NCBI GenBank assembly: GCA_943736015.1
Contig: OX031073.1
Coordinates: forward strand, 30,221,210-30,285,209
Reading direction: 5' to 3'
DNA: 64,000 nt
Source: Tridacna crocea
Taxonomy: Eukaryota > Mollusca > Bivalvia > Cardiida > Cardiidae
Below the pieces are notes generated by a model that was not told where the DNA came from, did not search any database, and saw only the letters and a list, made by a program, of their open reading frames with translations. The position numbers were made by a program, and so were the translations under genes. Of this stretch, positions 607 through 63,689 are shown in pieces. How positions within the stretch are numbered: position 1 is the first letter of the stretch; the number at the start of each line of letters is the position of its first letter.

Positions 607-834
607 TTAACTCTTTCCCAAACAAGCCCTGGTTTTTCCGTGTTTGCAGTAAAAGTCTTTTGAAAACACTGTGGGAAAAGGAGAAATTGCTCGTAACGAG
701 CAATTTCTCCTTTTCCCATGGTGTTTTCTATCCTTATTGAAAACTTTCTGTCATTTTCTCCAAATCTAAATTTGTTGTCTGCAAATTCTTTTGGTTTGGA
801 AGAGTCCAAAATTTATCGTTTGGGAAAGGCTTAA
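607..834. mobile_element. TTAA hairpin MITE, subfamily C
   Basis: A 228 bp fold-back element with TTAA at both ends. It starts TTAACTCTTTCCCAAACA and ends TTTGGGAAAGGCTTAA. The central hairpin (about 661-731) has the subfamily C loop GCTCGTAACGAGC and arms containing GGGAAAAGGAGAAATT. It lies in the intron just upstream of the first visible receptor exon. Confidence 0.85.
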
Positions 835-890
835 AAAAGGTAAATTGGTAACAAAGTATATTTTCTGTACTTTTCTTCTCTATATTCCAG

Positions 891-1044
891 AGAAACGATG
901 TCGATTTCTGGTGATACTGTCTTGGTCATTTGCCGCACTATTTTCATTACCTATCTTGTTTCTATACGAGGAGAAGGAGGTCGATGGAATTCCTCAATGC
1001 TGGATCGAACTGACGGAAACCTGGATGTGGCAGGTTTGAAACAA

Positions 1045-1105
<61 letters not shown>

Positions 1106-4100
1106 TCCGGACAATTATTACGAGATACAGTGCAGCTGCCGGTTCCTTTTAAGATGGAATAAGGACGGTTGTGGTTCATCAAAAATTCAATTTCTAATAT
1201 TTTGTTAAAACTCTGCAGCCATGTAATTGGTTGTGACCTAATGTCAATACATGGTGTTTGCAGTTTATAATTATAGCAACAGTAAGAACGATTGAAGAAT
1301 AGTACCGCCTTTCATAAGATAAGACTTTGATGGGGTGTATCATTCTGTCTCATTGAACAACTTTGTAGTACCGCCTTTCATAAGATAAGACTTTGATGGG
1401 GTGTATCATTCTGTCTCATTGAACAACTTTGTAGTACCGCCTTTCATAAGATAAGACTTTGATGGGGTGTATCATTCTGTCTCATTGAACAACTTTGTAG
1501 TACCGCCTTTCATAAGATAAGACTTTGATGGGGTGTAGCATTCTGTCTCATTGAACGCTACAACTTTGTAGTACCGCCTTTCATAAGATAAGACTTTGAT
1601 GGGGTGTATCATTCTGTCTCATTGAACAACTTTGTAGTACCGCCTTTCATAAGATAAGACTTTGATAGGGTGTAGCATTCTGTGTCATTGAACGCTACAA
1701 CTTTGTAGTACCGCCTTTCATAAGATAAGACTTTGATGGGGTGTATCATTCTGTCTCACTGAACGCTACAACTTTGTAGCGTTCAATGAGACAATGATAC
1801 ACCCCATTAAACTCCTTTCTTATGAAAGGCGGTGTAATGCAGAGAGATGACCCTCCCTTACAAAATGAGCTGGGTCATTTTTCTACGCAGAGAAATGATC
1901 CCAGAAGTCATTTCTCTACGTAGAGGAATGACCCGGGTCATTATTCTCCGTAGAGAAATGACCCGGGAGGGTCATTTCTCTACGTAGAATAATGACCCGG
2001 GCCATTCCTCGGTGTAGGGAAATGACCCATGGGTCATTTTGTAGGGGAGGGTTATTTCTCTGCATTACAGAGGCACTATTCTTCATTGTCTGTAGCCTCC
2101 ATAGTTCACATCTTTTGTGTACATACCATTTCTTGGATAAGTGCAATCCTTTCTAAATTTTCTTACCTAGACTTTATCGTCTGCTGTCAAATATGATAAG
2201 TAATTTTTTTCGGAGTTTTATCATGAAAGTCCAAGAAAGCACCATGTAGCTTGTTTTAATTTACTGTATACGCATAAACCGAGGGATTTTGGGGTGCATA
2301 GCAACAGTAACTAAGGAAGTTGTTTTATCTCGTCGCTACAAAACCATGTATTATTTTTCGAAAAACAAATCTTTTATTCTTTTATTTTCAGCTTTACCTA
2401 ACGTTAATTTCCCTAGCCGTATTCATCATTCCAGCAATTATAATAGCCACCTGTTACATTGTCATTGTGGTGATCATTTGGAGTAAGTCCTCACTCAAGT
2501 TCAGCAGATGTGACGAGAAAACTCAGTGTATCACCCGGAAAGGTAAACATGGAATTCTATGTTGAATTTGACCTTTGTTCTTTCAACACCTAAAGTTACT
2601 TGCAATCAAATACGTTTAGCAAGTTATTTTCAATGTAAAATAAATAAATAAGCTTAACGAAATCGCATGCAAAGATGACTTGAAAAGTATGTTACAGACA
2701 GTACTCAGATGCCTTGCTAGGAATGTATGAAACATCCCAACTTTTTTTCCCCTTTCTTTCTGTCTTTGTTTTCCTCCGGTCCGTATTCACCAACCATTCT
2801 TCAGAACGTTCTTGGTCTCAGTCTCAAGAATATTTTTAAATATGAAAGTAACACAATTTCTGATTGGCTAAATCAAAGGGTTTAGCCAATCAGAGGTTGT
2901 GTTAATTCTAAATTTAAAAAATCTTGAAGAATAAGACTAAGATTATTCTTTAAAATGGTTGGTGAATACGGGCCCAGGAAAATAGAGTTCTAGCATGAAC
3001 ATACATAGAAACAGTTGATTTTCAGTACAAATTCATACACAGAAGCATAATGAATTTTTATAACATGATCTCACACCGAACCGAATGATTATTCTCTTAG
3101 GATCTTACAATGAACAAAAATGCTATCCTTGTAAAAATTAGTAAGCGGATATTCTCACACGATTTCACGACGTAACAGACAATCATCCTAAGAAATCTTA
3201 ACTAAAAATATCAATCTTAAAGCCGCCAAAATTATCATATATAGGTGTTAAGATTTAAATCAATTCATTTAAAAGTATGGAAATTATTGTGAAGATGACA
3301 ATTTGTTACTTTTGGCTGCAGAAAACAACTTGTAATTGTCCAGTCGGTGCAAGTAGTACTCGCTGGCAAAGAAATGATTTTGGAAGTAGGTCAAAAGATG
3401 ACACGTTGCTATGTCTTTTGTTGTCTTTTTATCCGGTTTTAAGTTTTGTGCAAGCGACTTACACTTGCACCGACTGGAAATTCTTTTTTTAAAAGTAAGC
3501 AAGAATTTTGTTTCCTAGGCGCTTGGATTTCTCAAAAATGCCATGGTGAATACTGATCATATATTCGCTGTGCCACAGCAGATATATGGACATTATTCAC
3601 ATCAGTGCTACGCCACACACATTGAAATCAAGGTTACATTATAACTTCTTGATATTGCCAATTCATGTTTTGTCGAAATTATCATTAGTGGATCTATACA
3701 CAAGTTTTAACATCAAGCTGTCTGGAGGCTGGACAATGTTAAACACCAAAACAAACAATTCTTTTCACACGATCTCACATCAAAATCAACGAATTTTTCC
3801 CTCCAATCTAACATCAAATCATTTTTTTCTGTGTTTTCTACGCCAGGTAGACTAACTATTCGTATAGCGGGCTCCACAACACAATCGATGAGTGCCACCA
3901 GTTCTAGGGGCGTGATACCTAAAGCTAAAATCAAAACCATCAAAATGACGTTCGTCATTGTATTGGGCAAGTATCAATCTTTTAACTATCTTTACTCTCT
4001 AGCCAACAATCAGGGTTTTCATCTCGTCCACGGAAACAGCCTTTCGAAAACACTGTTAGAAAAGGGGAGGAAAGTGCTTTTTTTGCCGAAGTTTTTTTCT

Positions 4101-6480
4101 TCATCTTATTATAAGGTTATGGCTAAATTGATTATCATTCATTATCTCCCGCTAGATGGCATTCTATAGATACTCATCTATCTAATTTGGGCATCCTGGG
4201 TACAGAACCGAACCACTTTCCTACGCGACAACCGTTACTTTAAATTTCAAACTAAAATAAACGTTTACTCAATAAAACGCTACCTCGTGCAATTCACTCA
4301 GCTATGATTAGCAGTCTAAAAGAAATCTGGGGCTATAACAGGTTTCATTTATCCTCAAACGTATTGAGAAAAGCTATTTTCTACATTACTACTTTATAGA
4401 GCGTAATATTACAGTCCGCCCGCTTTTGGGCTAGTGATGCATCATATAAGACAGTCGAATCTTCGAAGAATATGACATGCACAGACAACGGATTAACATT
4501 GTAACAAAAGTATCGAAATTTATTTAATGTGTTATCATCTTCATCATCATCGGCATTATTATCATCATTATTATAGTTGTTATCGCTAAATTCAGGTGAC
4601 TTCTAAACATAAATGGTTTCCAGATAAAATTTGGTTAAATGTGTATAGAATAACTCAGCTGTGTAAAGATAGATAAATTACCTACGCCTTAGAAGTAGAA
4701 ATAGTGTGCTCATTTAAAACCAGAAACAACAATATTGATTGCTTTTAAGGCATCCAATACATAAAATGCATTTTCTATCCGCTGTAATCTGTTCAATCTT
4801 TCAGCCATCACCGCCTATAATTTGACATGAGGATACAAGTTATAGTTTTATAAGTTGATATTTCCATGAACATTGGCGAGTTCTGATCGGCTGAATTTTT
4901 TTTTATAGCTCAATGAAAAAAAAACTCACCTTGTATCGGTGTAATGCAGAAATGACCTCCCTACAAAATGACCCATGGGCATTTCACTACGTAAAGGATT
5001 GACCCGGATCGTTATTTTATACGTGGAGAAATGACCCAAGATGGTTATTTCTCTACGTAAAATAATGACCTGGCTCATTCCTCTACGTAGTGAAATGACC
5101 CATTGGTCATTTTGTAGGAGAGGGTCATTTCTCTGCATTAAACCGGAACTACTTTTGCTAAAGGTTACTTATGCGGGTCCTACACACTGCTTTGCTCTTT
5201 TACTTTCGTTCTATTGTTTAATTTTCATCTGAAAACTGCTTCCGTATTGTATTCTTGCGCAGTACAAATATGAGTGGAAGCCGCTTTAGAAACTCCAATG
5301 TTGGATTTAAAGCTAAAGAAAATGAATGTAGTCCGAGTTATTTCCGTGGGTGTATGTTTTCTGTAATATTAGCTTATAAGGAATGAAGAGAATTTTTTTT
5401 TTTTTTTTCATGGAGGTATGAAAAAAAACTAATCACACTTTTGTATGAAGCCATAGTTTCATACAGTGTGATTGGGGTTTTTTTATATCTCCAAGAAAAA
5501 AAAAATTCTCTTTACTCCTTAACCCATTACCACACTATCCCTACTTTTGACGCCCCTGAGAAAGAAACCTTTAGAAAACATTTTGGGAAAATGAGAAAAT
5601 GCTGGTAACCAGCATTTTCTCCTTTTCCCGCAATGTTTCCTACCCTTCACAAAACAAATTTCAAATTTTCAGTCACTTTTATTTTGTCGTCTGCAAATGC
5701 TTTCAATTTGGACATGCCTAAAATAATGTCGTTTGGTAATGAGTTAAATAAAATAAGGATTAGATAGCTCAAAAACTGCCTAAAAACTGCCTGAAAACTG
5801 CCTGAAAACTAGTGAAGATGTATCGTTATTATATACCTAGCAGTGAAATCCTGGAATTTCCCAGTGTAATAAATTTTGATATCATCACTAGTGACGATAT
5901 AAACTTTTACTTTCATTTCCTGCCGTAATTTGGGAACTACTTTTTTTTTTTCGACTACATTTTTTTCGACTTTCAAACGCAAAATTACAAATAATAATGT
6001 TAATAAGGTATATAATAAATAGAATAATCAACTGGTTATTTTTTATATGAAAAATATCTCACTCGGACGCGTCGTAAGGCGTTAAAAAAAACTCGTGCTG
6101 CGCACTCGTTTTTTCAACGCCTAACGACGCATCCTCGTGAGATATTTTTCATATCAAAAACAACCAGTTGATTATCCTCTATGTATTTAATACAGATGAT
6201 TGGGACTGACGGCTTACACTGTTCTTACTTTTTTCTTGCAGCCTTTGTATTCTGCTGGTCGCCCTATTTTATATGGGATCTTCTGTCTGTGTACGGACAC
6301 ATCAACATATCGCCTCAAACAGTCGCTCTCAGCACCTTTATACAAAGTCTAGCCCCGCTCAACTCCGCAGCAAATCCAGTTATTTACACATTATTTAACA
6401 CGGCCATGTGTAGAAGAATCTTCAAGAAACATACGACATATAGTTCGCCAGGAAACTCAACAGCAAATACACATTTGTAA
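891..6480 (+). CDS. Neuropeptide GPCR (CCAP / neuropeptide S / vasopressin receptor-like), 3' part
   Basis: Four coding exons: 891-1033, 2392-2542, 3847-3966 and 6242-6480 (stop TAA). Phases are compatible throughout (entry 1, then 0, 1, 1). The spliced peptide of about 217 residues covers TM4 ([12 protein letters not shown]), ECL2 with PQCWIEL, TM5 ([14 protein letters not shown]), a basic ICL3, TM6 (FVFCWSPYF), TM7 with NSAANPVIY, and a short tail. FCWSPYF together with [15 protein letters not shown] is characteristic of the arthropod/mollusc CCAP receptor, neuropeptide S receptor and vasopressin receptor group, which signal from the plasma membrane through G proteins. The subtype is inference. 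TM1-TM3 and the DRY motif are outside the window. The third intron has a GC donor (G then gcaagt at 3967-3972) and acceptor AG at 6240-6241; the joined codon gives Ala between VIVL and FVFCW, as TM6 requires. A possible AATAAA overlaps the stop (6479-6484). Confidence 0.93.
1048..1103. repeat. (CT)n microsatellite
   Basis: Uninterrupted CT dinucleotide run of about 56 bp. It lies in the receptor intron, 14 bp after the donor of the TM4 exon. Confidence 0.95.
1299..1833. repeat. 66-bp tandem array ending in an inverted copy
   Basis: About seven head-to-tail copies of a 66 bp unit starting TAGTACCGCCTTTCATAAG, some with a 5 bp GCTAC insert before AACTTTG. The last direct copy is followed at about 1774-1833 by its inverted copy ending CTTATGAAAGGCGG. 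The ancestral unit was therefore probably a hairpin with ACCGCCTTTCATAAG ends, of which one arm was tandemly amplified. Confidence 0.9.
1830..2069. mobile_element. Multi-palindrome fold-back element (ATGACCC family)
   Basis: Ends are inverted: GTGTAATGCAGAGAGATGACC on the left and TTATTTCTCTGCATTACA on the right. The interior is a string of short palindromes built from AATGACCCGGGTCATT and CTACGTAGAG. Related copies lie at 4939-5143 and 49494-49747. Confidence 0.85.
2778..2976. mobile_element. Fold-back MITE with CCAATCAGA core
   Basis: About 200 bp with inverted ends (GGTCCGTATTCACCAACCAT on the left, its near-complement ATGGTTGGTGAATACGGGCC on the right) and a central inverted TTAGCCAATCAGA / TCTGATTGGCTAAA pair. 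Related copies are at 7366-7547, 55140-55275 and 55297-55497. It lies in the receptor intron. Confidence 0.88.
3334..3482. repeat. Short inverted-repeat element
   Basis: About 150 bp bounded by inverted arms: AATTGTCCAGTCGGTGCAAG at 3334-3353 and CTTGCACCGACTGGAAATT at 3464-3482. No coding content is recognised. It lies in the receptor intron. Confidence 0.75.
4141..4497. repeat. Dispersed 350-bp repeat, copy 1
   Basis: Begins ATTATCTCCCGCTAGATGGC, passes through GGGCATCCTGGGTACAGAAC and ends near GAATATGACATGCACAGACA. Two further copies are at 15659-15910 (interrupted) and 46878-47232. No coding capacity is seen. Confidence 0.85.
4939..5143. mobile_element. Multi-palindrome fold-back element (ATGACCC family), copy 2
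   Basis: Starts GTGTAATGCAGAAATGACC and ends GGTCATTTCTCTGCATTA. It has the same CTACGTA and AATGACC palindromes as the copy at 1830-2069 but is more diverged. Confidence 0.82.
5388..5518. repeat. Fold-back repeat with poly-T/poly-A arms
   Basis: Inverted arms read AAGAGAATTTTTTTT near the left and AAAAAAAAATTCTCTTTACT at the right. An inner pair is CTAATCACACTTTTGTATGA with TCATACAGTGTGATTGG. The whole folds as a hairpin of about 130 bp. Confidence 0.75.
5519..5747. mobile_element. TTAA hairpin MITE, subfamily A
   Basis: TTAA at both ends. The left terminus is TTAACCCATTACCACACTAT and the right is GTCGTTTGGTAATGAGTTAA. The central hairpin has the loop GCTGGTAACCAGC. It lies in the receptor intron. 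Confidence 0.88.
6024..6178. repeat. 155-bp inverted repeat before the last receptor exon
   Basis: The left arm reads GATAATCAACTGGTTATTTT and the right arm ends AACAACCAGTTGATTATC. Inner arms TGAAAAATATCTCACTCGGA and TCGTGAGATATTTTTCATAT also pair, with a loop containing GTGCTGCGCAC. It lies about 60 bp upstream of the acceptor of the TM7 exon, so it could present a hairpin in the pre-mRNA. Confidence 0.85.
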
Positions 6481-7350: not shown

Positions 7351-7365
7351 AGAGTATACGAAGTA

Positions 7366-8145: not shown

Positions 8146-8359
8146 AGTGGATCTGTGAAAGTTTCGTGTGAATTCGTAAGCGGTCTGTAAAACGATATTT
8201 CATTGGCTTTTAGAAATATGATGTAAAGGGGAGTAATAACCAGCATCCAATAGAGGGCGCTTCGCAGGAATCTCGACATCGGGCTCAATTAGCCAAGGTA
8301 AGATCCACGTAGTGATCGTAACCTTGGCTCGCGAAGATGTGCCTTAATTGACACTGACG

Positions 8360-8534
8360 AGGAATCGTTATGAAAACATTGGTGGGAAAAGGAGAAAATG
8401 CTGGTAGCCAGGATTTTCTCCCTTTCCCATAATATTTTCTAGCCTTTCAAATATAAATATAACTTTCTATGGCAGTTTTATTACGGCAACTGCAAAAACT
8501 GTGGACAAGTCTAAATTTTTACATAAAGGGTTAA
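8360..8534. mobile_element. TTAA hairpin MITE fragment, subfamily A
   Basis: The right part is present (hairpin with GAAAATGCTGGTAGCCAGGA, and ACATAAAGGGTTAA at the right end). The left terminus is missing. Confidence 0.7.
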
Positions 8535-8607
8535 TCTTTTCAAAAACCATCCAATTTCAATTACTTATTAACCCACAGGGTTCAAAGCGCGACTCACTGA
8601 CCTTCTG

Positions 8608-8672
8608 CGGACAGTGTAGATCAAGATCAGACTGCACAAAACGTGCAGTCTGATCTTGATCTGCACTGTCCG
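8608..8672. repeat. 65-bp palindrome (GATCTTGATCTGCACTGTCC family)
   Basis: A near-perfect hairpin: the left arm is CGGACAGTGTAGATCAAGAT and the right arm ends ATCTTGATCTGCACTGTCCG. A relative lies at 50896-50960. Half-sites (CAGTCTGATCTTG) are scattered near 17632, 25637, 48650 and 60080. Confidence 0.85.
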
Positions 8673-9018
8673 ATAAGGAGATGTTGTTCCCAGAAACATA
8701 GCTTTGAAGTGGCAATATTTGTGCCATTGCCATCGATTTGAATTTTTCAGTTTCTTATTTAGCATGATAAGGGTTAAGAAATATAGGAAACCTTTACGTG
8801 CTGTGCAGTGTCTTGGCCAAGGACACTACATCGAAAAAGAAAAAGAAACAACAGTGCATTCAGTAAGGATCGAAGTCGGTTCCTCAAGGTTACGATTCAT
8901 ACAGTCTTGCCGTTGAACCACGCAGGCCCCCTTGTCTAGTGAAGCGTTAAGGTGTATACAATCGACTATGACAAGTCAGAGTTCCAATGCTCAGCCAATA
9001 GATGTCAGCCATTTCTCA

Positions 9019-9056: not shown

Positions 9057-9285
9057 TTAACCCTTTACCAGACAATCCCTGGTTTTTACGGCCCAGAGGA
9101 AGAAGCCTTTTGAAAACATTGTGGGAAAAGCAGAAAATGCTGGTTACCAGCATTTTCTACTTTCCCCACAAAGTTTTCTATTCTTCTAAAATCAGGTTTC
9201 AATTTCTGAGTCGCATTCATTTTGTCGTCTGCAAATGCTTTCAATTTGGACAAGTCTAAGATTTTGTTGTTTGGTAAAGAGTTAA
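9057..9285. mobile_element. TTAA hairpin MITE, subfamily A
   Basis: Complete copy: TTAACCCTTTACCAGACAAT on the left, TTGTTTGGTAAAGAGTTAA on the right. The hairpin is intact with loop GCTGGTTACCAGC. Confidence 0.92.
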
Positions 9286-9896: not shown

Positions 9897-10125
9897 TTAA
9901 CCCTGTAGCAAACGACAAAATTTTAGACTGGTCCAAATCGGAAGCATTTGCAGACGACACCATAAATGTGACTGAAAAACTGAAACTTGACTTTAGAAAA
10001 GTAGAAAACATTGTGGGAAAAGGAGAAAATGCTGGTTACCAGCATTTTCTCCTTTTCCCACAATGTTTTCAGAGGGCTTCTTCCCCTGGGTCGTAAAAAT
10101 CAGGGACTGTTTCGTTGAGGGTTAA
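9897..10125. mobile_element. TTAA hairpin MITE, subfamily A (reverse)
   Basis: TTAA at both ends, in the orientation that begins with AACGACAAAATTTTAGACTG. The perfect hairpin has loop GCTGGTTACCAGC. Confidence 0.9.
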
Positions 10126-10796: not shown

Positions 10797-11025
10797 TTAA
10801 CCCTTTACCCCATAAGGCATTTCTATGGTATCTCTAAATGACCCTTAATAACAGCAAGGATGAAACCGTTTCTTATGTGTATATGGCACCTTTTGATAGC
10901 ATAGAAAACATTGTGACAAAAGGTGAAATTGCTCGTGACGAGCAATTTCGCCTTTTGCCACAATGTTTTCCAAAGGCTCCTACAAGCAATGAGTAGAAAT
11001 GAGTATCTATGGATTAAAGGGTTAA
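10797..11025. mobile_element. TTAA hairpin MITE, subfamily B
   Basis: Left end TTAACCCTTTACCCCATAAG, right end CTATGGATTAAAGGGTTAA. The subfamily B hairpin has arms with TGACAAAAGGTGAAATTG and loop GCTCGTGACGAGC. Body sequence differs from subfamily A, but termini and overall plan match. Confidence 0.9.
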
Positions 11026-51400: not shown

Positions 51401-53813
51401 ACTACTTTGAGCTTGGTTTCCGATTTGATTGGTCAAAAATATTACGTCATAATATCTATTCGCCATTCATAACAAGAAATTATTATTTGCTAAACAAACG
51501 TTTAAACTTAATTTCAAACCGTTAAAAGAGACACATTGTCAATGATTTCAATATTTTCATCTTGAAAATTGTAGGTTTTAGTTTGAAAAAAAAATATTGT
51601 AATTTAGCAGTTTTCCTTATCATTGCATATTGCTGTGTGAGAAAATTTACACTTTGAACTTCGGTCTTACGGGATATCGAACTTTCATATGCAGCTTCAC
51701 GCAAATAGTAGCACCAGGAAAAATCCTCAAATATCTAGAGCAAAAAGATAGAAAGTGGATAGTGTTTTATTTTTTTTAATTTTCTATCTTTACCTTTTTA
51801 CAGGAATTTTGTCAAAACAACCACATGTCCAATCTAGTACATATCGATAATGCGGCGGAAAACTCCTTTATAAAAACCTACCTACAGAAAATGAAAGGTA
51901 CCCTTCATTTGTTGTCTTTCTCATTGCTTTGCTTCCCGTAGTCTGACTTACTATCAGCTTAGGGTGGCTTGCAACACGCAAAAAGGGGCATCCGGACTAT
52001 TGCATAAAGTGTTGTCCCGGATCAGCCTGCGCACTCCGTGCAGGCTAATCCGAGACGGCACTTTACGACTACATTAGATTTACAGGAGTTACATGGATAG
52101 ATGCAATGGCTGCCCCGATAACCAAGTATCATACAAACAACCCTCTTACCTCCAGAAAGAACTGTGCGGCAGAAATCTCGACATTTTCATTACAAAATTA
52201 GCAATCAACACTAATGAGCGTTTGCCACATGAATACAGTAAACGTGAAGTAAAGAGACGATTTCACTTGATAAAAATGTTATTAGTCGTATGGGGGGAAG
52301 GCGAGGGGGCGACATGATTCACCACAGCCGTTAACATGTATCAAAGACGTCTGCCACTTGACCGTACAACGAATTTATCATACTGCAAGGTTTTACCATT
52401 CCAACGTTTGTTAAGCGAATTTCACCTTGCTTTTTGTTATTGTTTAAAAAATTAGTACGCTGACGAAGTAGAATTTCCCTTCTGAGTGCCCCAATTCAAT
52501 GAAAACTGACGTCACTGGGAACTGACGTCACTAAAACCCTAGTACTAGTAATGCTTGAGCGTGTGCATCTTGGCGCATAATCTCGATGTTAATCTTGATC
52601 GACGCCGCCAGTTTTGATGTTGTATTGATGGTCTAATCATGTACACGGGGCTCCCGAAAGGGAAACTGCTTTTACATTGGTTTTGACAGTGTACATGATG
52701 TATATGTTCGGGGCATATTATCCAATCAGATCCCGAGAAATGTCTTTGCAGTATGATAATATATAATTTCTTTGCACGATCGTTAGAAGCGGAGATTGTG
52801 GGGTAAAGGGTTAATGGTGTTTTCAAAAACGTTGTTGTAACGACCATTTCTCTCACAGATGAACCACATTGGATGGACCTGACGGACCAGGACCACGAGG
52901 GTGAATACTTATGGAATGACACGGGTTCCCCTATCGAGTTTACAGACTGGGCCCCGGGACAGCCGGATAATTATATTGGTGGGGACGAGGACTGTATACT
53001 GTTCTATGACGATGATAATTACCTGTGGCACGATGCACCCTGTGAACATTCCCACGAACCCATCTGTGAGAAAAAGTATGATTTAACTTACAACAACCAA
53101 ATGAAGAAATTTGAATGTTCTTTTCCAAGGGTCTGTATTCAAGAACCAGCATTTTTCTCCATTTCTCGTGGAGATGCGTGATCAAATATACTGGTTGTAA
53201 ACACCAATGAGGGTTTGATTTGTCAGTACTAAAACACCATGACAAAAGTACTAGCAATTTGACCATTTGCCATCATCTTTTCAAACGTGGTTTGCTGCTA
53301 GACACTTGCTGTCTCTTGGAGGGAATGTTTACTCTTTACTTAACGGTAAAATGATCGATTTGTCCAAATCAAAAGCATTTGCATATCACAAAATAGATGT
53401 TACTCAAAAAATCAAATTTGTTCATTGGGGAGAAAATGCTGGTAACCAGCATTTTCTCCTTTTCCCTCGAACTTTTCAAAAGCTTTCTTCATCAAGGTTA
53501 TTAAAGCTTGGGATTGTGTGGAAAAGCGTCAAGTTGGATGGATTGATTGTATGGTGTATAACGCCATTTTCAATGTTATTTCAGTTATATCACGGCGGCC
53601 AGTGTACCTATCCATGCTTTCCTTGTGGTTCCTTTTACCAGTACTCCGCACAATATTCTTTCCAAGCACTGGCTGCTTTCCCACATGACCAATCTTCGAA
53701 ACAATGATCAGCGGTGAAAGAGGAATGAAGGCAAAGCAATTTGACTTTTTTTTTGTTTTTTACTTAACAGAGCTGGCGACTTCGGTACTGACAACATTGA
53801 GCTGATTGGTTAA
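48477..53813 (+). CDS. Secreted C-type lectin B
   Basis: Exons 48477-48525 (signal peptide MGPMNVVILLLLQALLG), 51079-51179, 51804-51897, 52859-53075 and 53771-53813 (stop TAA); 167 residues, all GT-AG, phases 1, 0, 1, 2. Single long-form CTLD with six cysteines: CPDYWTSFDGSCYLFPD, then NLVHIDNAAENSF, DEPHWMDLTDQD, the sugar-specificity motif QPD in APGQPDNYIGGDEDC, and WHDAPC. It is a close tandem paralogue of lectin A; exons 2-5 are identical in length. Role as a secreted Ca-dependent sugar-binding protein, likely galactose-type, is inferred from QPD. Reading through the exon 4 donor would add an unrelated tail ending at 53181; the short exon at 53771 is preferred because it matches lectin A's last exon in length, phase and C-terminus, and AATAAA follows at 53862. 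Confidence 0.93.
49265..49344. repeat. 80-bp palindrome, copy 2
   Basis: TCGTCGGTTTACTTCAAAAA and its inverted partner TTTTTCAAGTAAACCGACGA around GCTTGTTTCAAGC. Nearly perfect hairpin in lectin B intron 1. Confidence 0.93.
49494..49747. mobile_element. Multi-palindrome fold-back element (ATGACCC family), copy 3
   Basis: The best-preserved ends in the window: ATGCCGGTGTAATGCAGAGA on the left, TCTCTGCATTACACCGGCAT on the right. Inside are CCATGGGTCATT and CTACGTAGAG palindromes. Lectin B intron 1. Confidence 0.9.
49889..49958. repeat. 80-bp palindrome, copy 3 (shortened)
   Basis: TTCGTCGGTTTGCTTCAAAA on the left. About 10 bp of the left arm is missing before TTGAAACAAGCTGTAGTTAC. Right arm GAAGCAACCCTACGA. 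Confidence 0.82.
49965..50300. repeat. Imperfect GAGATAATT-rich repeat tract
   Basis: Irregular repetition of blocks such as CCACGAGATAATTA, CATGGCCACAAGA and TATCTCATGAC over about 300 bp. No coding content. Confidence 0.55.
50583..50813. mobile_element. TTAA hairpin MITE, subfamily A
   Basis: TTAACTCTTTACCACAGAAT on the left and GTCGTTTGGTAAAGAGTTAA on the right. Hairpin with loop GCTGGTAACCAGC. Lectin B intron 1. Confidence 0.92.
50896..50960. repeat. 65-bp palindrome (GATCTTGATCTGCACTGTCC family), copy 2
   Basis: Arms GCGGACAGAATATATCAAAG and CTTGATCTACACTGTCCGC around TGCATATATGTACA. Relative of 8608-8672. Confidence 0.8.
51968..52075. mobile_element. Double-hairpin element, left half only
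   Basis: GCTTGCAACACGCAAAAAGG followed by one hairpin (GGATCAGCCTGCGCACTCCG and GTGCAGGCTAATCCGAGACG). It stops near TACATTAGATTT. Lectin B intron 3. Confidence 0.85.
52345..52665. repeat. 300-bp inverted repeat, left copy (flanks lectin B exons 4-5)
   Basis: Contains CTGACGAAGTAGAATTTCCC, GAAAACTGACGTCACTGGGA and TTGGCGCATAATCTCGATGT. The reverse complement is at 54101-54400. The two copies bracket the last two exons of lectin B. Confidence 0.88.
53560..53735 (-). mobile_element. SINE fragment, reverse orientation
   Basis: Matches the SINE body at 9290-9535 (TTTTCAATGTTATTTCAGTT, CTATCCATGCTTTCCTTGTG, TGGCTGCTTTCCCACATGAC). The tRNA-like head is missing. It ends just before the polypyrimidine tract of the last lectin B exon. 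Confidence 0.75.
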
Positions 53814-54400: not shown

Positions 54401-54716
54401 ACTTGTCGCATCGACATGATTCACCACAGCCGTGAACAAGTTTCCAAGTCCTACATATAAATATAGTATCCTTAAAATCCTGTTTGTTTTACTACAGGCT
54501 GAATCAGAATGTAGAAATGTCCTTTGACAAGCATAACTGAATTTATCAATATTAGGTCTCGACTCAGGTCAGCCTGCGCAGAGTGAACGTTTCTCCTTTT
54601 CTCATAATAACTTCAAAAGACTCTTTTCTCAGCGTTGTTAAAACTTGAAATTGTTTTGTAACCACAAGACGAAAGTGTTGACTTTCAATTTGAGATAAAT
54701 TCCCGACAACATATCA

Positions 54717-54935
54717 ACCCTTTCCCACACGACAAATAGGAGTGTTGCAAATTGAGAGCATCTGCAGGCAAGAAACTTAAAGGGGATACAAATTACCTGC
54801 TTTTTTGACAGTAGAAAACATGGTGGGAAAGGGAGAAAAATGCTGGTTACCAGCATTTTCTCCTTTTCCCACAATGTTTTCAAAAGGCATCTTTCTCCAG
54901 GTCATGAAAACAAGGGATTGTTTGGTAAAGGTTTC
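54717..54935. mobile_element. TTAA hairpin MITE, subfamily A, and partial copy to 55080
   Basis: CAACCCTTTCCCACACGACA on the left (TTAA mutated), perfect hairpin, right end TTGTTTGGTAAAGGTTTCAA. A second decayed hairpin (GGAGAGTATCCTGGTTACTA) follows at 54985-55055. Confidence 0.85.
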
Positions 54936-55139
54936 AATACGACTTGATTTATGGGATATGCCCTTGAAAGGGCTGAAACCATTTTTGGAAAAGGAGAGTA
55001 TCCTGGTTACTAGCATTTTATCCCTTTCCCACAACATTTTCAAAAACCTTTTGAGTCTTCTGCCAAGGACTGTTGAGAAAGGTGACAATGGTTCCACGGC
55101 CATGATGGGGACTTCAGATTGCAAGTTCACAATTTAGTC

Positions 55140-55650: not shown

Positions 55651-58600
55651 TTAACGTGTTGGAGCCTGGCCTGGTCTGGGGGCATTACCCTCTTGCTGTA
55701 AAAAGAGACGGAAAACAAAGTTTACCTTTTTTAACTCTTTACCAAACAACAAAATTTTAGACAGGTCCAAAATGAAAGTTCTTGCAGACGACAAATTAAA
55801 CTTAAAAGTTGAAATTTGTTTTGTGAAGGGTTGAAAACGTTGTGGGAAAAGGAGAAAATGCTGGTTACCAGCTTTTTCTCCTTTTCCTACAATGTTTTCA
55901 AAAGGCTTCTATCTCAGGGTCGTAAAAACCAGGGATTGTTTGGGAAAGGGTTAATCAAGTATAGCTGATATGATGACGGCTATCTTTGAAAAGGATAGAA
56001 AGCATTGTGGGAAAAGGAAGAAAATGCTGATAAGCAGCATTTTCTCCTTCTCCCACAATGCTTTCAAAAACCTTTTTTTCCAAGGTTATTAGAAGCCATG
56101 ATTGTCTGGTAGAAGTTTGGTAGCAGTCAACAACTCGTGTACTATAAAAGTAGACCTGTAAATTTCAGTTGTAACAAAATTAATAAAAGTATGGTTATCC
56201 CAAGTCTGCCGACCTGTAACATCACAGTTAATCAAGGATCCAGCCACTGGCCGAACCAGCATTTTCTTCTTTTCCAACAATGTTTTCAAAAGGCTTCCTT
56301 CCAAGGGTCGTTAAAAGTCAGGATTGTGTGGTAAAGAGTTAAAGATTAAGGAACACCTGTCCTGAAAGTTAAGGCATTGAGCCCTACTATTTACACTTAC
56401 CCTGATGGGCCTGAACCTGATTGGTGGGGTTCTGTCTCTACGGGCTTCTCTGGATCGGTTTCTCACTACTTTGGAGTGAATAGCGCAAGACACGCAGTAA
56501 AATAACTTAGCATACAGTTTAGGAAGGGCGTACACTGAAAGTAAAAAAATACGATCAATTGAGCCATGCTCTGTGAAAAGGGGACTTAATGTATTTGCAA
56601 ATAGTATGAATCCCTGTCAGCCTGCGCATCATGCGCAGGCTGAAAGGGGTCCATACTGTTTGCGATTTGTAAATTTTCTGCAGTCCCAACCAGTAGTGTG
56701 TTTGGCCGAAAGGATTTTATGTAACATAATCATGTTACAAACTCTCACTGCATGATGCATCACAGAAATGCATTAAGCTCTCTTTTGCCAGAGCATGGTT
56801 CATTTAATTCTAATAGACATCATTTTGGAGATAACAATTTGATCATGGTGCAGATGATAAAATTTGTCGTTGAAAACATAACGAAACACTGTTGAAAAAA
56901 AGACAGAATGCTAGTCAACTGCATTTTCCTTTTCTTCCCCCTGAAGTATTTTCAACTTCTTCTTTCATAGAGAAAGCAAAAAATGTCGAGTACAAATTAA
57001 CCATTGTAAAAACAATGGAATTCATAATTGATAAGGCACAAAACCCTTGTGCTAGTTACCAGCACTCTCATTTTCTCGAAATGTTTTCAAATGCCTAGCA
57101 GTTCCATAAACAAAATTTTCTTACAACATTAAATGTCGATAGTTTCCTGCCAAGGTAGGATTTCTGGGACATTACACTTTTGAATTGGGAAAGTGTTCTA
57201 AGCATACATTGCTTGACTATGTGCCTTTCAAATTCATTTGAGAATTGACTCAACTATTTAAGAAAAATGTAAGTCTTGTTCAAATTGAAAGCATTTCCGA
57301 CTCAAATGGTGAAATTGGTCTTTGATAGGATAGAAAACAATGTAGGAAAAGGAGAAAATTCTGTTTTCAAACTTGTCCAAGTTGAATGCATTTGTGGCTC
57401 GAATGCTGAAATTTGTTTTTGATGGGATAGAATACACTGTGGAAAGGAAAAAAATGCTGTTTACCAGCATTTTCTGTTTTTCCAATGTTTTCAAAAGGCT
57501 TCTTCCTTGGGATGGTTGAAAGTCAGCATTGTATGTTAATGGATCAAATTTTCAATGAATCTGTCACATTTCATTTTGGGGAAAAAAAAAGAGCCATATT
57601 TCTGCAAGTTAATGAACCATATGTACCTCTTTATGAATAATTCCTTGGCAGAACACTGTACCAGATTTGTCTGATTTAGTGATTTTTACTATTTATATGG
57701 CTTTCAGTTTTAATTTCATCATCATAGCAACAGCTCACTCTTTTCTCTGTTTCCTTGGATTCCCAGTTTATCAATGCAGTGCCTTGCTCAAGGACACTCC
57801 CACCTGAAATGGGCTACAAGATATAACAAGCAGGATTTCAAACCAAACATCAACCTACCATCATAGACACTAGCATCAGAGATATCTCTTACGGCAGCTG
57901 CTTCCACAATGTTTCTGATCACAAATTTTTTAATGGCTTTGTCTTTAGGTACACATCGTGCACAATTGGTACATCTGACAAATCCAACATGACCACGCCC
58001 CTTCTTAGCCCGTCCGTTATTACGCCTTTTTGAAGTCTAAAATGATGCATGAAAAAAGGAAGATTGAAATATTTTCTTTATACATCTACCACAAGGTTGC
58101 ATTTGTTTGTTTGTGCAGCTTTCAATATTATTTCAGTCATATCATGGTGATAGCTCACACATTCATGTTCTCCTGGGTTTAAACAGTACTAGGCTGGACT
58201 CTGAAGTCTCAGGGTCGCAATGTAAATAAAGCCTACAAATATGTAGGGAGAACCATATTACAAAATGGGATATATCCTTTATTAAACAGTCCCCAGTTTT
58301 TAACAGCCCCCTCCCCCCCTTCAAGGAAAAGCAGTTCTGAAAGCATTTTGCGAAAAAGAGAAAATGCTGGACACCAGCATTTTCTCCTATTCTCATGTTT
58401 TCTGCCCTATCTTGGGTAAACTTTGAACTTTTGAACCACCTACAAATTGTCGTCTGCAAATGCTTTCAATTTCGACCAGTCTAAAGTTATTTGGTAAAGC
58501 GTTAATGCCACTTCTATCTTTTGCATATTTATCTAAAACTTATTATAAGTCATAGATTTGTTTCTTTTGAAGATCATCTGTTAGACACCAAACCTTGTCA

Positions 58601-59511
58601 TGTGACCATATTGCAAGCATTTGAAAACAACTAAATTTATGAACAATGGAATTTGCCTTGTCTTTGTACAGGTGGAAAAGGAAAGGAGATTTTCCTTGTA
58701 GCAGGTACTCTTTTTACCTAAGTGTTTGCAAAAACTTTCCTCCTCAGAACTGCAAACTCAAGGGTTTGACTCGTAAACAGATTACTCCTTTATTCATACA
58801 ACTTTTCGACATCAAATTCAAAGCAATGTCAGATCTCAACAATTTAAATGCATGGACGTTATGGTTGAAAGAAAGAAAACCTAGTATGAAAAGGAAAAAA
58901 TGTGAGTAAATAGCATTCTTCTCATGATCTGTTCTTCAAGTTTTATTTGTCCGAGTTGTTAAACTTTAGATTGTATGGTTGCACTTTAGTCTTTCAGCGT
59001 GGTTTTTGCAGCTAATGGACTCATGAAACACTGCTTGCATCTATAAATCTAAACTTCTTGTTCTACAGTCCAACATTATCATTCAAACCCAATAAGTGTG
59101 ACATCGCCGCGATATCACCTTGATACCGAGGAAACTGACACGCGAAAACTCATTACAATGCACGGCGTTTCATGAATGTAGTCATTTCAGAACGTCTGAA
59201 TCTAATATCAAAACATTTACGTGTTTACTATTCATTCGAAGTTTACTTATTGACTTAAACGAACAAAAAATGTTATTTTTCAAACAAGAGCGATTCCGTC
59301 CAAAAACAAAAATTGTCAACGATCATCGTCCCACGTGGGGGAATTTAAGCTGTAAAATCGGACATTAACAGGACATCAGTACTGGAGTTAAGCATTTCAT
59401 GTATTAACTTTACTCAATATTGAAAAGTTCAACACTTTTTTAAGAGAGAAGGTCTTTGGATATGCTCATAAAAGGGAAATCAATGCGAGACACTGATATG
59501 GGTCTCACCAT
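55651..59511 (-). CDS. RPS26: 40S ribosomal protein S26 (eS26)
   Basis: Minus-strand exons 59509-59511 (ATG only, donor gtgaga), 57859-58036, 56401-56534 and 55651-55695 (stop TAA); 119 residues, all GT-AG with matching phases. The protein starts [17 protein letters not shown] after Met and contains [55 protein letters not shown] and [14 protein letters not shown], essentially the animal eS26 sequence; family length is about 115. The two CxxC motifs (CTNC, CVSC) form its zinc site. eS26 sits at the mRNA exit channel of the small subunit. The C-terminus ([14 protein letters not shown]) is the usual variable Pro-rich tail. An ATG-only first exon plus a pyrimidine-rich start (CCTTCCTCGGCCTTTTCC on the minus strand, about 59543-59526) fits a 5'TOP ribosomal-protein gene. 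A TTAA MITE lies 36 bp upstream of the last acceptor. Confidence 0.96.
55731..55954. mobile_element. TTAA hairpin MITE, subfamily A (reverse), in eS26 intron 3
   Basis: TTAACTCTTTACCAAACAAC on the left, TTGTTTGGGAAAGGGTTAA on the right. Hairpin with one mismatch (CAGCTTTTTCTCC). Further decayed hairpins follow at 55985-56070 and 56250-56341. Confidence 0.9.
57250..57545. mobile_element. Two merged, decayed TTAA hairpin copies
   Basis: Left-end-like CTCAACTATTTAAGAAAAAT, a half hairpin (TAGGAAAAGGAGAAAATTCT), then a second body with GTTTACCAGCATTTTCTG and a right end decayed. eS26 intron 2. Confidence 0.65.
58282..58505. mobile_element. TTAA hairpin MITE, subfamily A, in eS26 intron 1
   Basis: TTAAACAGTCCCCAGTTTTT on the left, TTATTTGGTAAAGCGTTAA on the right. 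The hairpin loop is GCTGGACACCAGC and one arm is shortened. Confidence 0.82.
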
Positions 59512-60100: not shown

Positions 60101-60109
60101 TCTGCTCTC

Positions 60110-60338
60110 TTAACTCTTTACCACACAATCCTGACTTTTAACGACCCTGAGAAAGAAAGCCTTTGAAAACAATGTAGGAAAAGGAGAAAATGCTGGTAAC
60201 CAGCATTTTCTCCTTTTCCCACAATGTTTTCTACCCTTTCCAAATCAAATTTCAATTTTTAATTCACATTTATTATGTCGTCTGCAAATGCTTTCAATTT
60301 GGACTAATCCAAAATTTTGTCATTTGGGAAAGAGTTAA
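60110..60338. mobile_element. TTAA hairpin MITE, subfamily A (tandem member 1)
   Basis: TTAACTCTTTACCACACAAT on the left; right end CATTTGGGAAAGAGTTAA. Perfect hairpin with loop GCTGGTAACCAGC. Its right TTAA (60335-60338) is the left TTAA of the next element. Confidence 0.93.
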
Positions 60339-60561
60339 CCCTTTCCCAAACAAGCCCTGGTTTTTACCTGTCTGCAGTAAAAGTCTTTCGAAAACACTTT
60401 GGGAAAAGGAGAAATTGCTCGTAACGAGCAATTTCTCCTTTTCCCACAGTGTTTTTACCTTTTTTGAGAACTTTCTGCCATTTTCTCAAAGTCTAAAATT
60501 GTCGTCTGCAACCTCTCTCAGTTTGGAAGAGTCCAAAATTTGTCGTTTAGGAAAGGGTTAA
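60335..60561. mobile_element. TTAA hairpin MITE, subfamily C (tandem member 2)
   Basis: TTAACCCTTTCCCAAACAAG on the left, GTCGTTTAGGAAAGGGTTAA on the right. Hairpin loop GCTCGTAACGAGC. Shares TTAA with its neighbours on both sides. Confidence 0.93.
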
Positions 60562-60787
60562 ATCTTTACAATCCCTGGTTCACGAACCCACAGGAAGAAG
60601 CCTTCTGAAAGCAATGTGGGAAAAGGAGTAAATTCTGGTTACCAGCATTTTCTCCTTTTCCCACAATGTTTTCTACTCTTCCAAAGTAAAGTTTCAATGT
60701 TTGAATCACATTTATATGGTCATCTCATTGCAAATTTATGCTTTCAATTCGGACTGGTCTAGGATTTTGTTGTTTGGTTAGGAGTTA
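60558..60787. mobile_element. TTAA hairpin MITE, subfamily A (tandem member 3)
   Basis: TTAAATCTTTACAATCCCTG on the left; right end TTGTTTGGTTAGGAGTTACC (TTAA mutated). Hairpin with GTAAATTCTGGTTACCAGCA mismatches. Confidence 0.88.
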
Positions 60788-60967: not shown

Positions 60968-61198
60968 CAACCTTTTACCAAACAATCCCTGGTCTTTACA
61001 ACCCTGAAACAGAAGCCTTTTGTAATGAAGGTGCATTTTTGTCAGACAACAAAAATTGGAATTTGGTTCCAACAAGGTAGAACACATTGTGGGAAACAGA
61101 GTAATTGCTGGTTACCAGCATTTTCTCCTTTTCTCATACTGTTTTCAAAAGGCTTCTATCTCAGGGTTGTATAAACTAGGGATTGTTTGGTAAAGGGC
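60968..61198. mobile_element. Decayed TTAA hairpin MITE pieces
   Basis: CAACCTTTTACCAAACAATC opens as a left end. A join then occurs near 61030, followed by the reverse-orientation hairpin (TGGTTACCAGCATTTTCTCC) and TTTGGTAAAGGGCTA. It looks like two truncated copies fused. A G-run lies at 60950-60961. Confidence 0.7.
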
Positions 61199-61524
61199 TA
61201 CTCACAAAGGACTCATGGAAATCTGTAGAACAGATTCTGACAAAAACTTTTTTCAAAGATCGTTACAGATCTGGGTAGCTGGAAACCTTTTTTTTTTTTG
61301 GCATAAATAATGTACTGGAACAGTAAATGAAAAGTAAGAATAACGAAATCTAATGTCTGATAAAGACATTTATTAATTTAAACATTTTTTTTTTCTTCCA
61401 TTTTTATTATTTAATGTTTAACCCAAATATAAGCTTTAACATCAAAAGCAACTAGTACATATATTTATGAAAACAGAACATTTACTCTATGTTCTTTTTC
61501 TATCATAGGAAGCTTAAAATCATA

Positions 61525-61754
61525 TTAACCCTTTCCCTAAAAACCCTAGTTTTCACAACCCTGAACAAGGAGCCTCCTGAAAACATTGTGGGAAAAGGAT
61601 AAAATGCTGGTAACCAGCATTTTCTCCTTTTCCAACCATGTTTTCTACCCTTCACAAAACAAAAATTTAAATTTTCAGTCACTTTTGTTTTATCATCTCC
61701 AAATGCTTTCAATTTGGGCAAACCTAAAATTTTGTTGTTTGGTAATGAGTAAAA
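61525..61754. mobile_element. TTAA hairpin MITE, subfamily A
   Basis: TTAACCCTTTCCCTAAAAAC on the left, TTGTTTGGTAATGAGTAAAA on the right. Hairpin near perfect (GGATAAAATGCTGGTAACCA). Confidence 0.9.
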
Positions 61755-61942: not shown

Positions 61943-62177
61943 TTAACCCTTTACCCCATAAGACATTTCTAAGGTACCAGTATCTCTAATTGACTCTAAA
62001 TAACAGCAAAGATGAAGCCGTTTCTCATGTGTATATGACACCTTTAGATAGCATAGAAAACATTGTGACAAAATGTGAAATTGCTCGTCACAAGCAATTT
62101 CACCTTTTGCCACAATGTTTTCCAAAGGCTCCTACAAGCAATGCGTAGAAATGAGTATCTGAGGAGTAAAGGGTTAA
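61943..62177. mobile_element. TTAA hairpin MITE, subfamily B
   Basis: TTAACCCTTTACCCCATAAG on the left, TGAGGAGTAAAGGGTTAA on the right. B hairpin with loop GCTCGTCACAAGC. Confidence 0.92.
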
Positions 62178-62575: not shown

Positions 62576-62686
62576 ATTCATTCAATCCCACATCCACGTA
62601 TGGGAAAAACTGATGATTTTATGGCAACTTGTGCTTTTTCCATAATGTCTGTTTGCATTTCAAAGACAAAATTATTTCTGAGCTTG

Positions 62687-62913
62687 GTACAACCATTTTC
62701 TAGCAATCCCTGGTTTTCACGGTCTTGAAAAAGAAGCCTTTTGAAAAAATTGTGAGAAAAGGACAAAATGCTGGAAACCAGCATTTTCTCCTTTTCCCAC
62801 ATTGTTTTCTATCCTCCTAGAACAAATTTCAATATTTGAATTAACTGAATTTTGTCGTCTGCAAATGCTTTAAATTCGGTCCAGTCTAAAATTTTGTCGT
62901 TTGGTAGAGTTAA
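62687..62913. mobile_element. TTAA hairpin MITE, subfamily A
   Basis: Left end mutated (ACAACCATTTTCTAGCAATC). Right GTCGTTTGGTAGAGTTAA. Hairpin with loop GCTGGAAACCAGC. Confidence 0.87.
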
Positions 62914-62932
62914 TTTGTCATCAGGTAAAGCT

Positions 62933-63159
62933 TTAACCCTTTACTCCATAGATACTCATTTCTACACATTGCTTCTAGGAGCCTTTGGAAAACATTGTGG
63001 CAAAAGGTGAAATTGCTCATCATTAATTTCACTTTTTGCCACAGTGTTTTCTACACTATCAAAAGGTGTCATAAACACATAAGAAACGGCTTCATCCTTT
63101 GCTGTTATTTAGGGTCAATTAGAGATACCGTAAAAATGCCTTATGGGGTAAAAGGTTAA
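62933..63159. mobile_element. TTAA hairpin MITE, subfamily B (reverse)
   Basis: TTAACCCTTTACTCCATAGA on the left, TTATGGGGTAAAAGGTTAA on the right. B hairpin with a shortened loop. Shares TTAA 63156-63159 with the next element. Confidence 0.92.
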
Positions 63160-63387
63160 CTCATTACCAAACGACAAAATTTTAGGTTTTTCCAAATTGA
63201 AAGCATTTGCAGACGACGAAGTAAAAGTGACTGAAAATTTGAAATTTGTTTTGTGAAGGGTAGAAAACATTGTGAGAAAAAGAGAAAATACTGGTTACCA
63301 ACATTTTCTCCTTTTCTCACAATGTTTTCTAAAGGCTTCTTTCTCAGGGGCATCAAAAGTAGGGATTGTGTGGTGGTAATGGGTTAA
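63156..63387. mobile_element. TTAA hairpin MITE, subfamily A (reverse)
   Basis: TTAACTCATTACCAAACGAC on the left, GTGGTGGTAATGGGTTAA on the right. Hairpin AGAAAATACTGGTTACCAAC, slightly mismatched. Confidence 0.9.
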
Positions 63388-63483
63388 ATCTGAAAAATAT
63401 CAGTGGCCTGTCTTGTTGTTTCCTGTGTTGCCTTTGGTTTCTAAAATACAGACTTTACATACAAATTCGCATTTCAGTCTGGT

Positions 63484-63689
63484 TTAACCCAATACCCCAT
63501 AATGTATTTCTATGGTATCTCTAATTGACCCTAAATAACAGCAAGGATGACACCTTTTGATAGTATAGAAAACATTATGGCAAAAGGTGAAATTGCTCGT
63601 CATGAGCAATTTCACCTTTTACTACAATGTTTTCCAAAGGCTCCTACAAGCAATGCGTAGAAATGAGTATCTATGGAGTAAAAGGTTAA
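63484..63689. mobile_element. TTAA hairpin MITE, subfamily B
   Basis: TTAACCCAATACCCCATAAT on the left, CTATGGAGTAAAAGGTTAA on the right. Intact B hairpin with loop GCTCGTCATGAGC. About 25 bp is missing in the left body. Its right TTAA overlaps the stop codon of the zinc-finger frame. Confidence 0.92.

Follow-up and report, generated by a model that had tools for sequence, protein, structure and literature searches.

A TTAA-flanked MITE family of Tridacna crocea with an internal hairpin that seems to be constrained in source elements and not in inserted copies

This work concerns a family of miniature inverted-repeat transposable elements (MITEs) in the genome of the bivalve Tridacna crocea. 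The window, that is the whole stretch of 64,000 nucleotides analyzed, comprises bases 30,221,210-30,285,209 of contig C18. Copies of the family end in TTAA and carry an internal hairpin, and we observed that the arms of this hairpin change in two different ways. Scattered arm changes are nearly as common as those in the flanks and mostly unpaired, while inherited arm changes are rare and mostly paired. This is the pattern expected if only source elements are constrained, and the constraint therefore seems to act on them and not on inserted copies. We propose that the family is a piggyBac-type TTAA MITE, in which the hairpin would serve as a cis-acting DNA module for efficient amplification. 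Judged from sequence comparison, this reading has a probability of roughly 0.55.

Results

Definition of the family and structure of the hairpin

We used the window copies as seeds and reached a single 229-column profile, which takes in both A-type and B-type copies. With this profile 52 non-overlapping copies or fragments were detected in the window, 27 of them full length, and they occupy 9,583 bases (15.0%). The first-pass annotation of this DNA had counted about 30 copies or fragments of a TTAA-ended family; the family is real and larger. The length of 225-235 bp given there fits 85 of the 106 full-length rows of our first set (window and loci L001-L027), while the full range is 199-238 bp. 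There are at least three subfamilies. Identical alignment rows were merged, which reduced 106 rows to 99, 151 to 144 and 319 to 300. Such rows came from overlapping loci and from L015, where two copies about 850 bp apart (6370-6598 and 7224-7452) probably represent a local tandem duplication.

The hairpin covers 67 nt (columns 56-122), with columns 56-88 pairing with columns 122-90 around a single centre base in column 89. It thus consists of two 33-bp arms and one centre base, and not of the 64 nt reported before. In 140 rows starting with TT and ending with AA, the median left and right flanks were 55 and 107 bases (10th-90th percentile 55-56 and 105-108, respectively). The arms had been described as usually perfectly complementary, which proved too strong. 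All 33 pairs were present in 5 of 28 window copies and at least 30 pairs in 16 of 28. Among 219 copies with both flanks the median was 30 of 33 pairs; 21 copies were perfect and 118 had at least 30 pairs.

Inherited and scattered changes of the arms

We compared arm and flank distances between 144 copies. The arm distance was 0.049 at a flank distance of 0.038 (10 pairs of copies), 0.069 at 0.080 (174 pairs) and 0.197 at 0.571 (1,901 pairs). On a flank-based tree the ratio of arm to flank length was 0.52 on terminal and 0.19 on internal branches. Between subfamily consensuses the distances were 0.11-0.63 in flanks and 0-0.14 in arms, and the changed pairs were mostly changed on both sides and paired in both consensuses (3 of 3, 4 of 5 and 3 of 4). 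The inner flanks of the A and B consensuses were 40% identical (27% when shuffled), while their arms were 86% identical.

These distances bear on the simplest alternative, in which most copies are recent and the arms are good because little time has passed. Closely related copies are indeed similar in arm and flank divergence. Between subfamilies, however, the contrast of 40% and 86% led us to reject young age alone. A short age of most copies, suggested in the first-pass annotation, cannot yield paired changes between subfamilies, and we regard this explanation as very improbable.

In 244 rows we classified variants present in at least six copies, and called inherited-like those for which the number of changes on the flank tree was at most half the number of copies. 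Tests on this tree were restricted to the 193 or 244 rows with sufficient flank columns. In the flanks (135 sites) there were 103 inherited-like variants (0.76 per site) and 191 scattered ones (1.41 per site). In the arms (66 sites) there were 8 inherited-like variants (0.12 per site), six times rarer than in flanks, and 63 scattered ones (0.95 per site). The contrast between arms and flanks in these inherited-like and scattered counts gave a Fisher p of 4.6e-5, or 4.7e-7 when the arms were counted as four pairs; the p value overstates the case, since few deep branches carry the changes and sites are treated as independent.

The eight inherited-like arm variants turned out to be both sides of four pairs: 69/109 (G-C to C-G), 76/102 (A-T to T-A), 81/97 (A-T to T-A) and 86/92 (G-C to C-G), with 36, 35, 43 and 38 copies changed on both sides, respectively. 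All four are flips, i.e. double transversions, for which a G-U intermediate is impossible. Of 717 cases of scattered arm variants, only 109 had a complementary partner, and pair 63/115 accounts for 38 of these. The latter variant lies near the limit of our rule and its flank neighbours are nearer than random, so it may be inherited too.

Changes private to single copies were assessed in clusters of at least four copies (29, 53 or 88 of the 144, depending on the cut-off). Excluding CpG, the arm/flank ratio was 0.78, 0.75 and 0.73 at the three cut-offs (intervals 0.48-1.09, 0.52-1.01 and 0.57-0.92, respectively). The earlier statement that pairing is better preserved than the rest of the element therefore holds between subfamilies and not clearly in inserted copies. 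The comparison of arm and body rates and of compensatory changes proposed with it had a similarly divided outcome, as inherited changes were rare in arms and mostly paired, and private ones occurred near the flank rate and mostly without pairing.

Coupled arm changes would also be expected if transcribed copies folded and were processed or bound, for example as microRNA-like or double-stranded RNA precursors. RNA folds of two window copies (9897-10125 and 10797-11025) were far below their shuffles (z = -8.4 and -9.9), and MADE1/hsa-mir-548 offers a precedent (PMC1784062). The four inherited flips cannot pass via G-U, although the 63/115 variant could, and a function at individual loci would leave a constraint confined to source elements unexplained. 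Rfam had no match at gathering score within the window, and a known RNA family was therefore rejected. A small-RNA survey of molluscs, in the part of its text available, reports no evidence of a dedicated endogenous small interfering RNA pathway (PMC12479628). We consider an RNA function improbable.

The centre base and exchange between the arms

In copies oriented by their flanks, the A-type centre was A in 186, T in 47, G in 14 and C in 6 copies, with a gap in 8; the B-type centre was G in 30, C in 4, T in 2 and A in 1, with a gap in 2. The complementary bases exceed the rates found in arms (2.1% for A to T and 0.8% for G to C; 47 of 253, p = 6e-30, and 4 of 37, p = 2e-4, respectively). Genome-wide, among copies with a perfect left arm only, the centre was T in 1,727, G in 614 and C in 234. 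About 407 T centres were expected (614 x 0.0209/0.0315), so that about four times more were observed; the G/C ratio was 2.6 at the centre and 2.4 in the arms. T- and C-centred copies did not group on the flank tree (37 changes for 41 copies; mean of 38 after shuffling) and thus look like independent events. The highest complement frequency in the arms was 6.6%. The centre ranked 13th of 221 columns, behind 12 flank columns which we take to be subfamily variants.

The complement-biased centre suggests inversion of DNA between the arms, by cruciform resolution or template switching. The T centres may also come from exchange with an inverted copy elsewhere or from an old minority T lineage. In the four B-type C-centred copies the mark at 68/110 was unswapped, which means that inversion there stopped short of the 21st pair; these four could be one subgroup. 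Such a bias may be usable as a natural record of how often a DNA hairpin inverts in an animal germline, each copy counting for one event.

If the arms exchange, template switching or gene conversion could keep them matched with no function needed. Centre flips point in this direction, and so does a second TTAA-flanked family (C), in which the loop was reverse-complemented in 2 of 25 oriented copies, in one exactly and in one with a change. Template switching is known to turn near-perfect inverted repeats into perfect ones (PMC7954356). In 167 A-type rows we found 63 paired two-sided changes where 18.3 were expected. Seventeen of these were the 63/115 variant and 13 the flips at 81/97 and 86/92; some excess is left, e.g. 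A-T at 75/103 in 7 copies that are not clustered by flanks. Within clusters, two-sided changes, paired and unpaired taken together, also exceeded independence at all four cut-offs (5, 9, 17 and 24 against 1.7, 2.9, 6.8 and 14.5 expected).

Shifted controls on the same 167 rows likewise exceeded expectation (28-48 against 25.5-29.6, up to 1.8 times), probably as an effect of unequal age among the copies. In 88 clustered copies the changed pairs were one-sided in 186 cases, two-sided and paired in 15 (8 of them at 63/115), and two-sided and unpaired in 9. In individual copies, the median number of unpaired positions is 3 of 33. Moreover, homogenisation alone keeps arms alike and should not slow their change sixfold relative to flanks. 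For these reasons whole-arm homogenisation was rejected as the main keeper of the hairpin, and as a full explanation it is unlikely. Arm-to-arm conversion, one of the candidates named in the first-pass annotation, retains some support as a side process in the centre inversion and in part of the two-sided excess, while the arms of individual copies are not kept matched. Slow correction is possible, and most copies are uncorrected.

Ends, insertion sites and the putative mover

TTAA was found at or within a few bases of both ends in 70 of the 106 full-length rows, at one end in 26 and at neither in 10. Columns 5-7 of the left end were C in 87, 88 and 102 of the 106 rows, and column 8 was T in 73 and A in 32. 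The termini are CCC...GGG and agree with the piggyBac-type motif CC[C/T]T (5'-YY...RR-3'; PMC2872659), though part of the copies have CCCA. By eye, the A-type consensus ends match over about 10 bp after TTAA, while the terminal inverted repeats used as a criterion for piggyBac-type MITEs have about 12-19 bp; one B-type copy showed end pairing over a longer stretch in its RNA fold.

We searched for empty sites by joining the flanks of a copy at one TTAA, and examined 25 of 40 matches. For copy 11222-11450 there were 11 repeat matches among those listed, 7 with a single TTAA (window 56557-56623, L011, L012 twice, L016, L020 and L025) and 4 different. For copy 9057-9285 TTAA was kept in 3 of 6 listed matches, and for a copy in L026 in 0 of 3. 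In two places neighbouring copies have one TTAA in common (60110-60338 with 60335-60561, and 62933-63159 with 63156-63387), an arrangement that would arise if one copy had inserted at the TTAA of another.

The piggyBac transposase domain (DDE_Tnp_1_7, PF13843) had at least 118 matches in the genome, and in 26 of these the match extends across the domain with no stop in it; the search gave 196 candidates, of which 116 were scored, and none in 14 control genomes. Clusters of partial or broken transposase matches lie on C13 at about 4.48-4.61 Mb and on C8 at about 50.41-50.44 and 56.71-56.76 Mb. We read the sequence beside the domain on the 5' side at three loci and on the 3' side at one. The candidate left end of the first locus, TTAACCCTTTATATACGAG, lies 633 bp ahead of the domain match, and a MITE fragment is found directly outside it. 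The second has a candidate left end TTAACCCTAGTCATGCGGG with a MITE copy directly outside, and at the third no end was seen in the piece read, where another MITE copy is present. These candidate ends share only TTAACCCTTTA and TTAACCCT with the MITE end (11 and 8 bases, TTAA included). PiggyBac elements with an end of similar kind seem to exist in this genome.

TTAA, the CCC...GGG ends, the empty sites and the genomic piggyBac domains fit mobilisation of the MITE by a piggyBac-type transposase. The 199-238 bp of its copies likewise suit the short and uniform size of piggyBac-type MITEs, and the open reading frames tested in the window (see below) are in line with a non-coding element. In the first reading of the window, TTAA had been taken to point to the same kind of mobilisation, and no autonomous partner was seen there. 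The former is supported, also by the single TTAA at most matches for copy 11222-11450, and the latter holds for the window.

Abundance in the genome

The assembly has 1.049 Gb in 31 contigs; C1-C18 have 40-77 Mb each and C19 has 57 kb. Density was estimated from 26 unbiased regions only (L009-L026 and L119-L126). There were 175 copies or fragments covering 31,947 of 220,000 bases (14.5%). Coverage was 12.6% in the 18 regions taken at 5.00 Mb of each chromosome, each 10 kb long, and 23.2% in the other 8, each 5 kb long. Extrapolated in a simple way, this density corresponds to about 0.8 million copies or fragments in the genome; a bootstrap over the first 18 regions alone yielded 0.47-1.04 million.

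The terminus TTAACCCTTTACC occurs 133,483 times in the genome (66,634 + 66,849), while the reversed control occurs 48 times (28 + 20). We fetched 91 of these sites (L028-L118), which were picked by a TTAACCCTTTACC start on chromosome C1 and therefore favour intact ends. The family was present at 87 (69 full, 18 partial), and 4 had no match at the site. At one site of other sequence (L116) we saw by eye no transposase in two frames of at least 100 residues within the 6 kb around and beyond it, where further MITE copies lie. Both the terminus counts and the sampled regions indicate that the family extends past the window through the genome. An exact 21-mer of the arm had 0 matches in viral contigs. 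At about 14.5% of sampled sequence, this one family would be a major genome component.

Copies in the window and neighbouring repeats

Coordinates of all copies in the window are collected in Table 1.

Table 1. MITE copies and fragments in the window, based on the 229-column profile; the last column gives paired arm positions of 33, or "profile".
Position	Strand	Feature	Pairing
477..569	-	fragment	profile
607..834	+	full-length copy, subfamily with hairpin core TTGCTCG	31/33
3993..4078	+	fragment	profile
5519..5747	+	full-length copy, A-type	29/33
8344..8534	+	partial copy (model 28-229)	profile
8568..8777	+	second TTAA-flanked family (C), different hairpin similarly placed; outside the 52	
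9057..9285	+	full-length copy, A-type; site seen empty in related repeats elsewhere	30/33
9897..10125	-	full-length copy, A-type, perfect hairpin 10004-10070	33/33
10797..11025	-	full-length copy, B-type, hairpin 10904-10970	31/33
11222..11450	-	full-length copy, A-type, within another repeat, mostly single-TTAA in its other copies	33/33
11572..11800	-	full-length copy	28/33
13290..13517	+	full-length copy, hairpin 13344-13410	33/33
15314..15388	-	hairpin fragment	profile
17246..17367	-	fragment	profile
19750..19811	-	fragment	profile
20351..20561	-	near full copy (model 1-216)	24/33
22221..22426	-	partial copy (model 29-229)	profile
22826..23054	-	full-length copy	33/33
23426..23609	-	partial copy (model 15-229)	profile
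23617..23831	-	full-length diverged copy	21/33
24327..24480	-	fragment	profile
24517..24739	+	full-length copy overlapping open frame that ends in EF-Ts exon	33/33
25133..25259	-	fragment	profile
25275..25336	-	fragment	profile
25383..25608	-	full-length copy, B-type	26/33
25671..25784	-	fragment	profile
37883..38047	+	fragment	profile
47535..47769	-	full-length copy	32/33
50583..50813	+	full-length copy	29/33
53329..53531	-	full-length diverged copy	16/33
54590..54661	-	fragment	profile
54716..54934	-	full-length copy	31/33
54937..55079	-	partial copy (model 10-160)	profile
55731..55954	-	full-length copy	30/33
55958..56115	-	partial copy (model 6-161)	profile
56255..56342	-	fragment (model 1-88)	profile
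56808..56974	-	fragment	profile
56966..57096	-	fragment	profile
57265..57368	-	fragment	profile
57365..57546	-	partial copy (model 2-205)	profile
58275..58505	+	full-length copy	25/33
58589..58777	-	fragment	profile
58803..58978	-	fragment	profile
60110..60338	+	full-length copy; right TTAA common to 60335..60561	31/33
60335..60561	+	full-length copy, subfamily with core TTGCTCG	31/33
60568..60787	+	partial copy (model 16-228)	profile
60969..61199	-	full-length copy	25/33
61525..61752	+	full-length copy	30/33
61943..62177	-	full-length copy, B-type	30/33
62692..62911	+	full-length copy	28/33
62933..63159	+	full-length copy, B-type; right TTAA common to 63156..63387	26/33
63156..63387	-	full-length copy, A-type	30/33
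63484..63689	-	full-length copy, B-type	29/33

Family C also occurs in L011, L012, L014, L016, L018, L021, L025 and L027, with the core GATCAAGATCAGACTGCAC and a layout of short left and long right flanks. Its flanks look much more diverged than its hairpin, and its loop, agaac, was seen inverted. Another hairpin family, marked by GCGCAGGCTGATCCGAGACG, forms near-palindromes of about 265 bp (window 14341-14604 and 14890-15152; L014, L016, L025 and L026), with the loops agtcc and ggact on the plus strand. The hairpin repeat CTTCAAAAACCTCGTAACTACAGCTTG was found in 8 places in 4 loci (window 46231, 49302 and 54066, and L011), and overlapping palindromes built on ACGTAGAGAAATGACCC lie at 1863-2039, 4977-5100 and 49490-49749 of the window and in L016 and L027. 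In hairpin families D, E and F oriented copies were too few or too mixed to compare loop orientations.

The window also contains a 10-kb tandem array (27087-37193) with a 60-bp unit and 180-bp higher order, and two arrays with a 34-bp unit (39729-41410 and 42370-43011), the first with long minus-strand open frames. We tested four open reading frames of the window, three of them overlapping MITE copies. The only Pfam match was an exon of elongation factor Ts (EF-Ts; PF00889, E = 1e-13) at 24793-25098 on the plus strand, outside the copy. The EF-Ts gene is split, and MITE copy 24517-24739 overlaps the open frame of its exon directly upstream.

Discussion

We suggest that the transposase of the genome's piggyBac elements would move the MITE in trans and that the internal hairpin would be a cis DNA module required for efficient amplification. 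Selection would then be confined to elements that give new copies, where arms change rarely, and then mostly on both sides, so that pairing is kept. After insertion a copy would be unconstrained, and its arms would decay nearly like its flanks. Cruciform extrusion, or template switching during replication, may bring the arms into physical contact as DNA, and this would invert the centre base. TTAA insertion, the unity of the family, its two-phase evolution, the mostly paired inherited changes and the complement-biased centre are observations; from them we infer piggyBac as the mover, the requirement of the hairpin for amplification, and action at the level of DNA rather than RNA.

Several results weigh against this proposal. 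The step from C in the A consensus to T in the B consensus at column 110 is inherited and unpaired, leaving B with 32 of 33 pairs; our rule had classed this variant as scattered (26 changes for 41 copies). The inherited arm changes lie on two or three deep splits only, so that the number of independent events behind the four pairs is small, and the resolution of the flank tree is poor. Changes private to single copies were 22-27% rarer in arms than in flanks, which leaves room for slow in-place correction or for unseen subfamilies, and two-sided changes within clusters are in excess of independence. In seven of the 219 copies at least 20 of the 66 arm columns are missing, perhaps through later deletion. 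Finally, an autonomous partner with the MITE's own terminus was not found among the three piggyBac loci read, and no MITE-like end was seen in 600 bp on the 3' side of the first.

The hairpin could also be a palindromic binding site for a transposase or host factor, with half-sites following the protein. Such a site would account for symmetric co-change and for slower change than in flanks. Thirty-three contiguous bp per arm is long for a dimer binding site, and here this explanation is inseparable from that of a cis module. It is partly a version of our proposal and its odds overlap with it; taken as such, we find it rather doubtful.

It has long been asked what allows a few MITEs to multiply to hundreds of thousands of copies, and internal sequence has been proposed to play a part in other MITEs (PMC2872659). 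The record of this family, held in very many copies, separates conservation in the mobile phase from decay after insertion, and it points to the hairpin. A wider idea is that the hairpin is an evolvable DNA module required for amplification of TTAA MITEs, kept folded by coupled changes in source elements, with centre inversion by arm exchange and a parallel origin in at least one other family, C, of similar layout. In piggyBac-type MITEs, TTAA and the ends would then be joined by a third cis requirement, which would have helped one family to occupy about a seventh of a gigabase genome. We offer this idea tentatively, as something possible and well short of probable.

Comparison with known systems

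The closest systems known to us by description are the CMITEs of Acropora. They have TTAA duplication, CCCTTT-type ends, a link to piggyBac and an inner region more conserved between families than the ends, for which the authors propose a role in transposition (PMC2872659). We found TTAA duplication, CCC-type ends and an internal region more conserved between subfamilies here too. CMITEs have about 100 bp and an estimated 1,600 copies in A. millepora (PMC2872659), while the family described here has 229 bp and an extrapolated 10^5-10^6 copies, and its 67-nt palindrome shows paired changes and a bias of the centre base towards the complement. A word search of the main text of that paper, as available, gave no 'palindrom', 'stem' or 'secondary structure'.

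MADE1 is likewise a short MITE whose RNA forms a near-perfect hairpin, and its two 37-bp terminal repeats with 6 bp between them make up the whole element (PMC1784062). The hairpin of the present family is internal (columns 56-122), lying between flanks of 55 and 107 bp with TTAA ends. Kolobok elements also have TTAA target duplications and are represented in molluscs by the common KolobokP, but their ends are 5'-RR...YY-3' (PMC9587614). We therefore rejected Kolobok, since the ends here are 5'-CCC...GGG-3'.

Short-range template switching, or quasipalindrome correction, is a mutation process at the level of DNA described at single loci (PMC7954356). Here it would act in a mobile family, and inversion of the centre is our own extension. 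Among the literature matches listed, as far as their available text goes, we recognised no account of this element or of paired hairpin evolution in a TTAA MITE. As far as the literature searched shows, three things are new in this family: a palindrome whose inherited changes are coupled, the bias of its centre base towards the complement, and how abundant the family is.

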